A DNA stretch of 54,541 nt from a virus. The notes under the pieces are model-generated. The model saw only the letters and a list, made by a program, of their open reading frames with translations. It was not told where the DNA came from and searched no databases. Shown here piece by piece: positions 4,521-43,360 of this stretch (positions are counted from its first letter, which is position 1; each line of letters opens with the position of its first letter). The stretch covers positions 1 to 54,541 of the IMG/VR virus record IMGVR_UViG_3300021420_000043, one strand, 5' to 3'. A program made the translations under genes and the position numbers.

Positions 4521-4535
4521 GACGCGCGCCCTTCC

Positions 4536-33513: not shown

Positions 33514-33873
33514 TTATAAATCGAATTGACCGGCGTGAAATTTGCGGTGACAATTTGCGCACAGACAAACACACTTGGCCAGTTCCGCTATAAACTGCGA
33601 TGGCCATCGCCGGGAAAGACTCGATCCAATTGAAAATAGTTTCTGAGTGGGATCGCGGTGGTGTGCTTCAAGACAGATCGGATCAGGCTCACCACATCGA
33701 ATACAGCCATGTGACCGAAAGTGCGCAAGCAACTGTTCACAGATTGGACGGTTGGCGGCGTCGTTCTGGCGCACTCGTTTACGATGGCGACGCTTGCGTT
33801 GCGGATCGGCGTAATACGCCGCATTATAAGCACGGCTATAGATTTTCCTGGCTGCAAGGTCCTTGATCGGCAT
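33514..33873 (-). CDS. HNH endonuclease, short type, 119 aa
   Basis: ATG 33873 (MPIKDLAARKIYSRAYNAAY). Basic and Arg/Tyr-rich N-terminus; then CIRCGEPDPICLEAHHRDP (Cys pair and the two-His HNH motif), and VCLCANCHRKFHAG as the C-terminal Cys pair and last His. The Zn-bound HNH arrangement is complete. It lies 46 bases downstream of the tRNA gene on the same strand, a common position for mobile endonucleases. A different subtype from the one at 1010. Confidence 0.85.
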   Translation of the reverse strand: MPIKDLAARKIYSRAYNAAYYADPQRKRRHRKRVRQNDAANRPICEQLLAHFRSHGCIRCGEPDPICLEAHHRDPTQKLFSIGSSLSRRWPSQFIAELAKCVCLCANCHRKFHAGQFDL

Positions 33874-33919
33874 GGTTAGATCGTATAGAACGAAGCAAGA
33901 ACGGTCAACGCCAATCATG

Positions 33920-33996
33920 TGGTTGCGCGAGTAAGATTTGAACTTACGACCTGTAGGTTATGGGCCTACCGAGCTACCGGACTGCTCCACCGCGCG
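33920..33996 (-). tRNA. Initiator-type tRNA-Met (CAU anticodon)
   Basis: 77 bases including an encoded CCA. Stems fit: acceptor CGCGCGG/TCGCGCA with a C1-A72 mismatch, D stem GAGC/GCTC with A11-U24, anticodon stem GTAGG/CCTAC, T stem GTAAG/CTTAC with TTCAAAT loop. C1xA72 and A11-U24 are the bacterial initiator identity marks, and the body is otherwise close to bacterial tRNA-fMet. The anticodon loop reads CCCATAA: base 33 is C instead of the near-universal U, and one of three initiator G-C pairs in the anticodon stem is A-U. Likely phage-encoded initiator tRNA. Confidence 0.85.
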
Positions 33997-34202: not shown

Positions 34203-34499
34203 TGCGCCACAACTCATCGTGCCACTGTATCCCTTGTCGGGGTGCCGTTGTATTGGCGTAGCCTCTAACAAATTCGCGATCCGATTCTCTATCTCTCAGC
34301 GGCACGGACCAAGCCGGACGAACAGACAACATGGAAATGTGAAAGGCGCAGATCATTTACATGACACGCACTCCCGGCCACGCTCAACAACGAAAAAACC
34401 CGCCGTTTGTGGGGCGGGTTTCGGGGCGGACGCAGCTACGTCAGTTTGTGCAGCGCTTATATACTATCCGGCAGACTAAGTCAAGGGCCAGCCGGACAT
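34203..34499. other. Non-coding gap downstream of terminase
   Basis: About 297 bases between the small rightward gene and the terminase stop. Frames here are short and lack ribosome sites. The one clear element is the terminator at 34393-34421. GTGCCG and CGGCAC blocks at about 34241 and 34299 could pair over roughly 50 bases, but no tRNA can be folded. Nothing else seen. Confidence 0.5.
34393..34421 (-). terminator. Strong intrinsic terminator of the terminase operon
   Basis: AAACCCGCC (34396-34404) and GGCGGGTTT (34413-34421) form a 9-bp GC-rich stem with an 8-base loop. Leftward the stem is followed by a run of six T (34393-34398), classic for Rho-independent termination. Rightward only three T follow. 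It sits about 80 bases after the TerL stop. Confidence 0.85.
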
Positions 34500-36128
34500 T
34501 TAAGCGCCAACCGCCGCGATCGAGGAACCTGACGTGAGGCCGCGGAACGCGCCGCACACCGCATCGACCTGGTCGGCGTGCGCGGACTTCGGGCCAAAGC
34601 TGCACAGTTCGTCAATGAAGGCTTGGTTCCAATGGCCGACCAGGAGCTTGACGAGATTGTTTTCGCATTGCGCGGCGAACGGTTCGGCGCGCCGCATCTT
34701 CGCCGTGGTCAATGGGCCAGTGCCGGAATCCTCGCGTTCGACCCAGATCGAATAGCCCTGCAGCATTGCGACGAAAGTGTGTGCCTGGAACTTGCCGGCG
34801 CCGCCTGGGTCCTTGGGTATTCTGATTTTGACCCCATTGCCGTGCTGCGCCGCATCCATGGCCGCTTGCATGACCAAGACGCGTTCCAGATCAGCCGGAC
34901 CCCACCGGCCACGCACCACGTCGATCACATAAAAGACCCGCGTCGCCCGGTCGCGCGCCAGCAAGACGCCAACCGTATAATCCGGATCGGTATAGCTCGC
35001 CGTCTCCGGCGACGCCGCGGTGTCCCAGGAGCGATACATATCGAGCCGGGAGAAATCCGGAATCATGTGGACCGGATTGTCGAACCAGGCCCGCTTGAAC
35101 AGGCCGCCCTCCGGCGCGGTGGGGCGTTGCTGGAATTGGCCGGCGATAGCATGACTCGACATGGTCGCTTGCATGTCGCGCAATGCGGAGATCGGGAAGC
35201 GCGATGGCCACAGCGGCTCGCCTGCCTTGCGGCAGTCGTGCCAGACCTCGCCAAGCTTCGGACCGCCATCGGTGCCGGCACTTGTATCAGTCACGCGCTT
35301 GACCTGCGGCGATTTCTTGGCACGCGGATTCTTGGGCGCGGCCGGCACTGTGAACACATGCGGATGGTGGCGCTCGAATTCGGCCGGCAGACACACATGC
35401 ACGCCGTTGAACTCGCGCGCCAGGATGTGGCCGACCAGATCGTTCTCGGCCGACCGCTGCATGCCGATAATGTAGATGCCGTTTTTTCTATCATCCAATC
35501 GGCTGTTGAGAACGTTGTCCCATTTGCTCAAGAACGTGACGCGATCGAGTTCAAAGCTTTTCGATTCGATGTTGTGCGCGTCATCGATGCAGATGATGTT
35601 CGCGCCAAATCCGGTCAGGCCGGAATTGACCGACATGGCGCGGCGCCGGCCGCCGACCGAGTTGGTGAAATTCTGGATTTGCGCGTCGCGCAAACTGAAA
35701 CGGTCGCCCCATCGTTTCTGATACCACGGCGATTCGATCAGGGATCGGCACTGCGTCGAATGCAAGTTCGACAGTTCCTGGCCGTAGCTGATGAACGCCA
35801 TGCGGGTGCCGGCACCGCGCCATGAGCCAGGTCTGATATACAGGCCGCGCCGCTGCGCCTTGTCAGGCACCGACTGCGCCCAAACCCAGGCCGGCAGGAA
35901 CACATTGATGCCGATGCTTTTCATATGCCGCGGCGGCATGGTGATGATCAGCGGCCCCTTGATCTGCCAATCGACCGCGGCGGTGAGATAATCCGCCATG
36001 CAGTCGATGTGCCAGTTGGTCTGATATTCTGCGGTCTCAAGCGCGTTGTGCCAGCCGGCGCGCATGAACTCGCCCAGCGAGCCTTCAAAAGCCAGAGCGT
36101 CGTTACCGAACCGATCGAGCAGAGCCAT
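34500..36128 (-). CDS. Terminase large subunit
   Basis: 542 residues. Near residue 60, GPLIITMPPRHMKSIGINVF holds the packaging ATPase Walker A-like segment (PPRHMKS), and ANIICIDDAHN near residue 175 is Walker B with the catalytic acid. The C-terminal nuclease half has MYRSWDTAASPETASYTDPD near residue 365 and a Trp/Asp-rich end with SFGPKSAHADQVDAVCGAFR, typical of RNase H-fold terminases with metal-binding Asp residues. It cuts concatemers and powers packaging through the portal. Followed by the strong terminator at 34393. TerS lies seven bases upstream. Confidence 0.9.
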   Translation of the reverse strand: MALLDRFGNDALAFEGSLGEFMRAGWHNALETAEYQTNWHIDCMADYLTAAVDWQIKGPLIITMPPRHMKSIGINVFLPAWVWAQSVPDKAQRRGLYIRPGSWRGAGTRMAFISYGQELSNLHSTQCRSLIESPWYQKRWGDRFSLRDAQIQNFTNSVGGRRRAMSVNSGLTGFGANIICIDDAHNIESKSFELDRVTFLSKWDNVLNSRLDDRKNGIYIIGMQRSAENDLVGHILAREFNGVHVCLPAEFERHHPHVFTVPAAPKNPRAKKSPQVKRVTDTSAGTDGGPKLGEVWHDCRKAGEPLWPSRFPISALRDMQATMSSHAIAGQFQQRPTAPEGGLFKRAWFDNPVHMIPDFSRLDMYRSWDTAASPETASYTDPDYTVGVLLARDRATRVFYVIDVVRGRWGPADLERVLVMQAAMDAAQHGNGVKIRIPKDPGGAGKFQAHTFVAMLQGYSIWVEREDSGTGPLTTAKMRRAEPFAAQCENNLVKLLVGHWNQAFIDELCSFGPKSAHADQVDAVCGAFRGLTSGSSIAAVGA

Positions 36129-36804: not shown

Positions 36805-36843
36805 ACAAGAGCGCCCGAACCACGGGCGAGATGAGGTTCCTTG

Positions 36844-37704
36844 ATGGCCACGTTGTTTGATGCCAACACCGATAACCGTCACGCCATTGCGATGTCGAAT
36901 CGCGGCACGGTTAATCCGGACGGCGTATCGATCAAAGGCTGCAACTACATCTACGCGCCGAAGGGCCAGGCCGGCGAATACGCGCCGCTCGCCGCCAATC
37001 CGTACCGCGGCTGCGGCACAGGTTGCGCGTACTGCTATGTGCCTCTGATCACCAAGCAAACCAGGAAAGAATTCGACGCTGGCGCGGTGTCGCGACAAAG
37101 CTATCTGCAGCACCTGCGCAACGACGCGGTCAAATACATGCGCGCCGGCATCACCGAACAATGCATGTTCTCATTCACGTCCGATGTCTACAATCCATCG
37201 AACACGGAATTGACCAGGCCATCGATCGAGATTATCCGCAATCACGGTCTGGCATTTTGCGTGCTGACCAAACACGGCCCGCGGGCGCTGGTTGACATCG
37301 ACCTTTATCGCCCCGACCGCGACGCGTTCGCCTCAACCCTGACATCGCTGGATGACGCGTTCTCACGCAAATGGGAACGCCACGCCGCATTGCCGGCCGA
37401 TCGCATCAACGCACTTGAGCAATTCCACAACGCTGGAATCTTCACATGGGTGAGTTTAGAACCGACACTCGACTGCGATGCCTCGATCGAGATCGTGAAA
37501 GCAACCCACGAGTTCGTAGACCTGTTCAAGATCGGCCGCGTCAACTATCTGCCGATGACCAGGACCACGGACTGGAAGGACTACACGCTACGCATTTGCG
37601 AGGTGGCCAACAAACTGGGCGCGCAACACTACGTCAAAAAAGACCTGCAACCTTTTCTCCCGGCCGGATATCATAACCCGCTGCGCGTCCCGCAGCATCA
37701 TTGA
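36844..37704 (+). CDS. Radical SAM protein (SPL/Rv2578c-like)
   Basis: 286 residues. NPYRGCGTGCAYCYVPL near residue 52 has the CxxxCxxC cluster that binds a [4Fe-4S] centre and SAM, with the YCY end seen in spore-photoproduct-lyase-like and Rv2578c-like enzymes. Downstream are MFSFTSDVYNPSNTELTRPS and TKHGPRALVDIDLYR, then FTWVSLEPTLDCDASIEIVK, the usual barrel strands. No RNA-modification domain is attached. The likely substrate is DNA or RNA damage or modification, not determinable here. It starts the rightward accessory operon and has a GAGG ribosome site. Confidence 0.8.
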   Translation: MATLFDANTDNRHAIAMSNRGTVNPDGVSIKGCNYIYAPKGQAGEYAPLAANPYRGCGTGCAYCYVPLITKQTRKEFDAGAVSRQSYLQHLRNDAVKYMRAGITEQCMFSFTSDVYNPSNTELTRPSIEIIRNHGLAFCVLTKHGPRALVDIDLYRPDRDAFASTLTSLDDAFSRKWERHAALPADRINALEQFHNAGIFTWVSLEPTLDCDASIEIVKATHEFVDLFKIGRVNYLPMTRTTDWKDYTLRICEVANKLGAQHYVKKDLQPFLPAGYHNPLRVPQHH

Positions 37705-42092: not shown

Positions 42093-42749
42093 TTATAAAA
42101 TACCTTTGAGAACCAATCCGATGTAGCGCACCTGCGCCTGACCCTCGTTCTTGCCATCGGCCTGCCATCGCGCCACGATCTGGCAATGCAATGCCTTGGC
42201 CAGTCCGATCACGGCGCGATCGAGAATGGCGTCGCGCTGGCGCAGCACGCCGACCATGCCATCTGGCTTGAGGCCGGCAAGTCTCGCCAGTGCCACCTCG
42301 ACATGATTGCCGATCATGGCCAGACCGGTGCCATCGGTCAGCACCACGCCGATCGTCTCACCGGGCGCGACCTCGCGACGGGCCGCAAGGATGAAGGCTT
42401 GCTCCCATGGCGAGCCGTGGGCGTCGAGATCGAACACGTTGAACGCCGACAGATCGATGCCACGCATGACGCGGCGATTGTCGGCGACAAAGCAACGCCG
42501 CTCATCGCGCGCCCATTCCTTGTCGCAGCCGGTATAGTGCTCGGCCAGGTGCCACACCGCCTTGTGCATCTTGCCTGTGCCGCAGAACGCGTCAAACACT
42601 TTAACCGGCCCGTCGATCGCGGACAGGCTTTCATCGATGGCGTCTAATACGTTGCGCCTGATCTCGGCCTTGGCCGTCAGCGCATTGGCGCTGTTGTTTT
42701 GTTTCTGAGTCTTAACCATCGTAGCCATACCTTGGTTCATCGCGATCAC
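42093..42749 (-). CDS. Methyltransferase-fold protein coupled to a ParB-like gene, 218 aa
   Basis: KVFDAFCGTGKMHKAVWHLA near residue 49 is a class I SAM-binding motif I, followed by GCDKEW, and VVLTDGTGLAMIGNHVEVAL as a motif IV-like strand. DPPY is absent, so DNA methylation is not assured. The start may be ATG 42716 (MVKTQKQNN) instead of 42749. Its 5' end overlaps the ParB-like gene by four bases, as in ParB/methyltransferase pairs of phages and mobile elements. Confidence 0.6.
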   Translation of the reverse strand: MIAMNQGMATMVKTQKQNNSANALTAKAEIRRNVLDAIDESLSAIDGPVKVFDAFCGTGKMHKAVWHLAEHYTGCDKEWARDERRCFVADNRRVMRGIDLSAFNVFDLDAHGSPWEQAFILAARREVAPGETIGVVLTDGTGLAMIGNHVEVALARLAGLKPDGMVGVLRQRDAILDRAVIGLAKALHCQIVARWQADGKNEGQAQVRYIGLVLKGIL

Positions 42750-43360
42750 CAGGTCACGTTGATGGTCGATAGCTCGACCTCGATACCGGGAATGTCGGCC
42801 ATGACTTTCTGCAAGCCCTGCAGCGCGTCGGCCTGGCTCGCCAGCGGGCCGCGCACGCTGATCCAGAACTCATCTTGCACGCTTGACGTTTCGATCTCGC
42901 GCACCAGAATCGCGTCGTCCGGTCCGGTGAGGCCAAGAATTTCCTTATCGGAGAATCCAAGCCGGTGCGGATCGGGACCGCCATTGCCGATCAGGTCGCG
43001 CAACGTGTCGGCCAGAATGCGCTCATCCCAGTCGGAGTTCTCCGGCAGCTTGTTCAACGCCAAGGCCAGGGCGGCATACTCGGCTTCATTCAGACCGGAG
43101 ACCACGCGGCAATCGATATCCTTGAGGCCGGCCAGCTTGGCCGCGTCCAGCGTTGCCTCGCCACCGATCAATTTCCCGTCAGGGCGGATCACCAGGGGCG
43201 CCACGAAACCGAACGCCGTGATGGAACCGGCGATCTGATCGATCTGATCGCGGCCGTGCTTCCTGGCGTTCTTGGGGTCTTTCTTGATGGCGCCGATCGG
43301 CCGGGTCTCGTTCTTGACGCTTGGACCGGTAGGGGAGGGGGGTGAAACTTTTTCCGTCAT
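42746..43360 (-). CDS. ParB/Srx-like nuclease-domain protein, 204 aa
   Basis: RPIGAIKKDPKNARKHGRDQ, IDQIAGSITAFGFVAPLVIR, DGKLIGGEATLDAAKLAG and a Cys-containing strand form the ParB/Srx fold: PxxxRxH-type loop, SIxxFGFxxP helix, IxGGExxLxA. The C-terminal half adds NSDWDERILADTLRDL and a normal domain. Phage copies usually partner with methyltransferases. It is not next to ParA at 15650 and lacks a visible long DNA-binding domain, so plasmid-type partition is doubtful. Confidence 0.75.
   Translation of the reverse strand: MTEKVSPPSPTGPSVKNETRPIGAIKKDPKNARKHGRDQIDQIAGSITAFGFVAPLVIRPDGKLIGGEATLDAAKLAGLKDIDCRVVSGLNEAEYAALALALNKLPENSDWDERILADTLRDLIGNGGPDPHRLGFSDKEILGLTGPDDAILVREIETSSVQDEFWISVRGPLASQADALQGLQKVMADIPGIEVELSTINVTW

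Follow-up and report, generated by a model that had tools for sequence, protein, structure and literature searches.

The window—the whole stretch of DNA that was analyzed, 54,541 bases long and taken from IMG/VR as a virus record—carries a phage-encoded initiator-type tRNA with a C at position 33 (C33). Our preferred reading, held with about as much confidence as doubt, is that this tRNA is a functional phage initiator that serves as a spare for inactivated host tRNAfMet and in which C33 may allow for escape from nucleases acting on the anticodon loop.

The tRNA gene and its surroundings

The features of the window that bear on this reading are as follows:

33920–33996 (−), initiator tRNA-fMet(CAU) gene, 77 nt including the encoded CCA (ARAGORN; Rfam RF00005; stems paired)
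33960–33962 (−), anticodon CAU (ARAGORN and sequence readout)
33963 (−), C33 in place of the near-universal U33 (sequence readout and alignment with host-type tRNAs)
33967 (−), A29 of the A29–U41 pair, with U41 at 33955, the alphaproteobacterial standard (sequence readout and Alphaproteobacteria scan)
33514–33873 (−), HNH endonuclease gene with its likely start at Met16 of a longer ORF, 33514–33918 (phrog_2255, phrog_3106, S-RIM50 homologue)
34395–34422 (−), terminator-like hairpin with a T tail, in the terL–tRNA interval (two such sites against 1.5 expected, statistically weak alone)
34500–36128 (−), terminase large subunit gene (terL), upstream of the tRNA on the same strand (phrog_38, E 1e-66)

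ARAGORN, run over the whole window, finds a single tRNA, Met (cat), and the Rfam family RF00005 matches at 33923–33996 (−) with 54.5 bits against a gathering score of 29. Laid out by hand, the 5′ part of the tRNA reads CGCGCGG UG GAGC AGUCCGGUA GCUC G GUAGG CCCAUAA CCUAC and is followed by AGGUC GUAAG UUCAAAU CUUAC UCGCGCA A CCA. The acceptor end features C1×A72, G2–C71, C3–G70, and the encoded CCA; all pairs form in the acceptor stem (2–7), the T stem, and the anticodon stem. Two marks of bacterial initiators are present: the mismatch 1×72, here C1×A72, and a purine–pyrimidine pair 11–24, here A11–U24, which is named as an initiator feature in passages of PMC8887418 and PMC7949028. Two others deviate: the three G–C pairs 29–41, 30–40, and 31–39 occur as A29–U41, G30–C40, and G31–C39, and U33 is replaced by C33, which lies between C32 and the anticodon. 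The unconstrained minimum-energy fold differs from the cloverleaf, which is not decisive for an unmodified tRNA. The sequence-only reading had described a tRNA with C1×A72, A11–U24, encoded CCA, and C33, and both tools and the readout agree with it; the low-scoring or pseudogene call that would have refuted it did not appear.

The contig is that of a phage, and the tRNA belongs to its late operon, with terL on one side and the HNH gene on the other. The best phage homologues of TerL infect Sinorhizobium and Rhizobium and share approximately 32% identity with it. Portal and head genes lie further along the contig, as judged by PHROGs; one portal or head protein has short matches in two Brevundimonas phages. 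These relatives of TerL, the Brevundimonas phage match, and the sequence of the tRNA itself point to a probably alphaproteobacterial host. Megablast of 25 kb of the window gave no match among phage records. ARAGORN calls at 42 of 80 loci of TerL relatives (approximately 26–39% identity) yielded no initiator tRNA and one tRNA-Thr in all. No phage formyltransferase, deformylase, RNA ligase, or antitoxin was found among 30 ORFs compared with PHROGs and 30 ORFs, an overlapping set, compared with Pfam.

The HNH protein matches phrog_2255 from residue 41 (E 7e-24) and phrog_3106 from residue 24, and its S-RIM50 homologue aligns from Met16, which places the start 46 nt past the CCA of the tRNA. A leaderless start at the ATG at 33918, one base past the CCA, is probably not used, since the homology points to Met16. 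Three side observations concern the rest of the contig. Just upstream of the terminator-like hairpin, at 34440–34490 (−), the pair TTGACT and TATAAG is seen by eye with a spacing of 17 bases; the promoter scan has a rule that demands T as the last base, and this pair is absent from its list. A radical SAM-like protein (36841–37704, +; Pfam E 1.8e-6, narrowly short of the curated cut-off) is the first in a divergent plus-strand block. The gene at 42746–43360 (−) codes for a phage ParB-like protein with a ParB-N domain.

Position 33 and the anticodon arm in cellular and viral initiators

The search pattern for initiators requires a fixed D arm with a D loop of 9 bases and misses many initiators. 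With position 33 left free, it matches in 101 of the 190 Alphaproteobacteria genomes drawn. Every listed match from these 101 genomes has A29, and all listed matches but one extra copy have U33. Because A29 is the norm of the class, the A29–U41 pair of the window tRNA is best taken as a mark of the host class, and a strict set of three G–C pairs is, on the same matches, not universal among true initiators. The A–U pair that had been noted as a replacement of one anticodon-stem G–C pair is real, yet no deviation. It is C33 that would set the window tRNA apart from the listed alphaproteobacterial matches, a comparison at the level of the class. The one extra copy, in a Phreatobacter MAG (G002, L316), resembles an initiator but has G33, and its acceptor stem is disturbed; it lies alongside normal copies and is possibly a remnant.

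Among 84,980 species genomes, the non-U33 pattern yields 117 stretches, and the tRNAs printed from these comprise 123 with C33, 3 with G33, and 1 with A33. The cellular C33 loci (L236–L352, e.g., L335 and L290) belong mainly to Weissella, Leuconostoc, Fructobacillus, Furfurilactobacillus, and relatives; others come from scattered uncultured lineages, and Victivallales, Kiritimatiellae, Omnitrophota, and Berkelbacteria are among the further groups represented. In two genomes, C33 is present in each initiator that fits the pattern: Weissella viridescens (4 of 4) and Leuconostoc citreum (2 of 2). Since chromosomal C33 initiators exist, C33 does not exclude initiator identity and, as judged by these genomes, does not break an initiator but is a working state in living bacteria. 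The defect that the sequence-only reading had implied finds no support in W. viridescens and L. citreum. Open-access full text, the part of the literature that was searched and outside of which most subscription journals fall, gave no report of C33 in phage or Leuconostoc initiators.

The viral collection comprises 2.9 million contigs by its description. The non-U33 pattern yields 29 stretches in it, and all 29 have C33, none A or G, so position 33 looks to be still constrained in viral initiators. Together with one tRNA from another scan, there are 30 viral C33 tRNAs. They fall into 22 sequence clusters, and for 28 of the 30 the nearest tRNA is one with U33, or there is a tie, which indicates that C33 arose repeatedly in viral contigs. 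ARAGORN places a Met call at the expected position in 27 of the 29 C33 loci; the two loci without a call are L094 and L108, the latter of which looks broken. The cleanest case is the C33 tRNA of L109, which lies in mid-contig (at approximately 25.5 kb of 55.4 kb), has a major capsid gene (phrog_1005) at a distance of 65 nt, and equals the host-type tRNA of L186 over 73 nt with C33 as the sole difference. The C33 tRNAs of L084, L103, and L110 share one gene context, which in L110 comprises genes for a methyltransferase, a terminase, and a portal protein.

The scan for viral U33 initiators yields at least 120 stretches, and more than 120 viral contigs carry initiator-type tRNAs, some of them probably in host flanks. 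That the window tRNA is phage-encoded is supported by the terminase, portal, and head genes in the contig. "Uncommon," as phage initiators had been called, holds only in a relative sense. Viral stretches with an NTTGG stem comprise 37 with U33 and 3 with C33, i.e., 3 of 40. These 37 in the whole collection, set against 6 of 120 among the matches listed, give a rough estimate of about 740 canonical viral stretches; the overall C33 share, likewise roughly estimated, is a few per cent. Most viral copies come from metagenome contigs, some of which are possibly misassigned. With duplicates collapsed, 18 of 24 viral C33 tRNAs retain the 1×72 mismatch, as do 48 of 58 loop variants and 76 of 94 canonical viral tRNAs; those without it mostly have T1–A72 or A1–T72 pairs and the like.

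Viral initiators that keep U33 vary at other positions of the anticodon arm: 48 stretches have a base other than A at 38, and 27 at 37 (L398–L472, with L445 too near a contig end to be printed). Every stem is paired in 53 of the 58 unique 37/38 variants, and T-loop positions rarely change. With the whole anticodon arm left free, the viral scan gives at least 120 matches; 64 of the 80 records listed are canonical and 16 are not, the latter comprising nine with a changed 31/39 pair (one also with C33), five with a changed 38, and two with C33. In the viral contigs of L398–L472 and L473–L484, changes thus occur at 37, 38, or the 31–39 pair, with stems otherwise paired. Because host flanks are among the viral contigs sampled, the share in phages may be higher. 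The cell comparison covers positions 38 and 31/39. No non-A38 initiator was found in the 190 Alphaproteobacteria, 299 Pseudomonadota, or 299 Bacillota genomes drawn, the first two draws sharing some genomes. A changed 31/39 pair occurs in 1 of the 299 Pseudomonadota (L485), for which a prophage origin found no support in two ORFs, neither with a PHROG match. The canonical pattern was counted in Pseudomonadota, where 37 of the 60 genomes of a smaller draw have it. Sampled cells, unlike viral initiators, almost never change 38 or 39. To our knowledge, this wider pattern of loop changes in viral initiators has no earlier description; the sequence-only reading had passed over both it and the selection exerted by loop nucleases.

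A proposed spare initiator and its alternatives

In the preferred reading, the window tRNA would be transcribed with the late genes, be charged and formylated by host enzymes, and supply fMet-tRNA for initiation during infection. Its most likely role would be that of a spare initiator once a tRNA-targeting defense inactivates host tRNAfMet. C33 would then most likely belong to a set of loop changes to which phage initiators have come repeatedly, changes that initiation tolerates and that an anticodon-loop nuclease, VapC-like or other, may recognize poorly. In favor of this reading are the four compensated stem swaps described below, the repeated origin of C33 in viral contigs and its restriction to C, the tRNA of L109, C33 as a working state in bacteria, and the changes at 37, 38, and 31/39 in viral initiators, those at 38 and 31/39 being all but absent from the sampled cells. 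Initiation relies on one tRNA species, which makes this species a natural single target for abortive-infection toxins and a natural phage backup. Loop nucleases are a known selective force, and Bosea, in which one is found, is an alphaproteobacterium. Its VapC acts on tRNAfMet, as stated in a passage of PMC8522696, and in Shigella and Salmonella, VapC cleaves tRNAfMet at the A38–C39 bond, according to passages of PMC4105405 and PMC5175333. Several points speak against escape. The window tRNA keeps A38 and C39, the two bases at the known VapC cut; loop changes, or part of them, could equally stem from relaxed constraint, the copy being redundant; and C33 also arose in bacterial chromosomes, where a phage-style escape is not an obvious cause. 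The statement in PMC10264068 that phages mostly do without a tRNA-fMet of their own in the VapC-LT2 case also counts against it.

A broader version of this reading is held more tentatively, and we would sooner doubt than accept it: phage initiators, intact and carried by many unrelated phages, would form a widespread counter-defense class, with the anticodon arm changed at 33, 37, 38, or 31/39 around the toxin-cut bond, and C33 as one recurring escape. The other initiator marks would be kept, and C33 would be open to phages since initiation tolerates it, as the existence of chromosomal C33 lineages suggests. The pattern suggests that an altered tRNA-fMet is a common phage strategy that can be recognized from the anticodon arm. 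It further shows that real initiators keep less strictly to U33 and to the three G–C pairs than is generally stated. The tRNA of L109 and its host type are a U33/C33 pair one base apart, which makes the question directly testable.

The strongest rival, tentative in its own right and less likely than not, is a plain supplement: the phage would provide more initiator for late translation, and C33 would be neutral, tolerated because the copy is redundant. The normal working state of C33 in some bacteria, the canonical loop in most viral initiators (64 of the 80 listed), and the position of the gene on the late strand between terL and the HNH gene fit with it, whereas the changes at 33, 37, 38, and 31/39, with stems kept paired and a T loop that rarely changes, and the restriction to C at a non-U position 33 in viruses do not. 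It is very unlikely that C33 bars the tRNA from elongation, where loss of the U-turn uridine would weaken A-site use and create an initiation-only species. In metazoans, exceptionally for tRNAs, the initiator has C33, as noted in a passage of PMC9023262, but most viral initiators keep U33, and bacterial initiators are distinguished in any case by their acceptor mismatch and anticodon stem (a passage of PMC7949028). Even less credit goes to the proposal of the sequence-only reading that loss of U33 alters start-codon choice or tunes initiation toward non-ATG starts. The 12 ORFs inspected gave no sign of an unusual start-codon regime and nothing in favor of tuning: ATG was read for nine, three of these ATGs being chosen inside a longer ORF, and bacteria whose pattern matches are all C33 exist.

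There are two further rivals. Phages often integrate at tRNA genes, so the tRNA might be an attachment-site remnant or a pseudogene. This is the least probable of the readings and scarcely to be credited: the tRNA is of full length with paired stems and an encoded CCA. Compared with the alphaproteobacterial host-type fMet tRNA (reference: the copy in L125), it has 11 changes and no broken pair. Eight of the changes form four compensated pairs (5–68, 27–43, 28–42, and 52–62), and the other three are G7–C66 to a G7–U66 wobble, one D-loop base, and U33C. Because a decaying copy is expected to break pairs and these changes are compensated, the tRNA looks selected and not decayed. As for an attachment site, the contig has no match to a tyrosine integrase or serine resolvase, and the 861 bases around the gene have no repeats of 14 nt or longer; it was rejected on these grounds. 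The other possibility, an unlikely one, is that the tRNA and the HNH gene form a mobile cassette, the HNH protein being a homing endonuclease by which the neighboring tRNA is spread or amplified. HNH genes next to terL are also commonly packaging factors, which counts against it, and relatives of this HNH protein occur at only six other loci fetched. The spacing of only 46 nt favors it, as do three parallels: at 4528–5094 of L401, a viral A38C initiator has a distant relative of the window HNH 55 nt downstream in the same order; in the cyanophage S-RIM50, the HNH homologue abuts a tRNA-Gly; and the homing endonuclease SegB, encoded beside tRNA genes, amplifies these against Septu, a tRNA-cutting defense, as described in part of PMC13096335. 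Adjacency alone is observed, and the HNH–tRNA link is a lead, not a result.

Comparison with known systems

The window tRNA shares CAU, C1×A72, G2–C71, C3–G70, A11–U24, and the encoded CCA with bacterial tRNAfMet and features two differences: C33 for U33, and A29–U41 as in Alphaproteobacteria. With the chromosomal C33 initiators of Leuconostoc, Weissella, Fructobacillus, Furfurilactobacillus, and uncultured lineages, it has in common the CCCAUAA loop and paired stems; those initiators are cellular, mostly have G29–C41, and occur in other sequence backgrounds.

Phage tRNAs have been proposed to evade tRNA-targeting nucleases by loop changes, as set out in PMC10264068 (2023). The likeness lies in a phage-borne tRNA with a changed anticodon loop. 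The tRNAs treated there belong chiefly to tRNA-rich mycobacteriophages, and in the case of VapC-LT2 phages are said generally to avoid encoding tRNA-fMet; here, an initiator is encoded. In T5-type supplementation, as described in part of PMC11555353, it is tRNA-Tyr and tRNA-Lys that replace host tRNAs destroyed by a defense, with measured rescue, whereas the initiator of the window is known from its sequence. The preferred reading would share the principle of that system: the phage itself supplies the tRNA species that a defense destroys.
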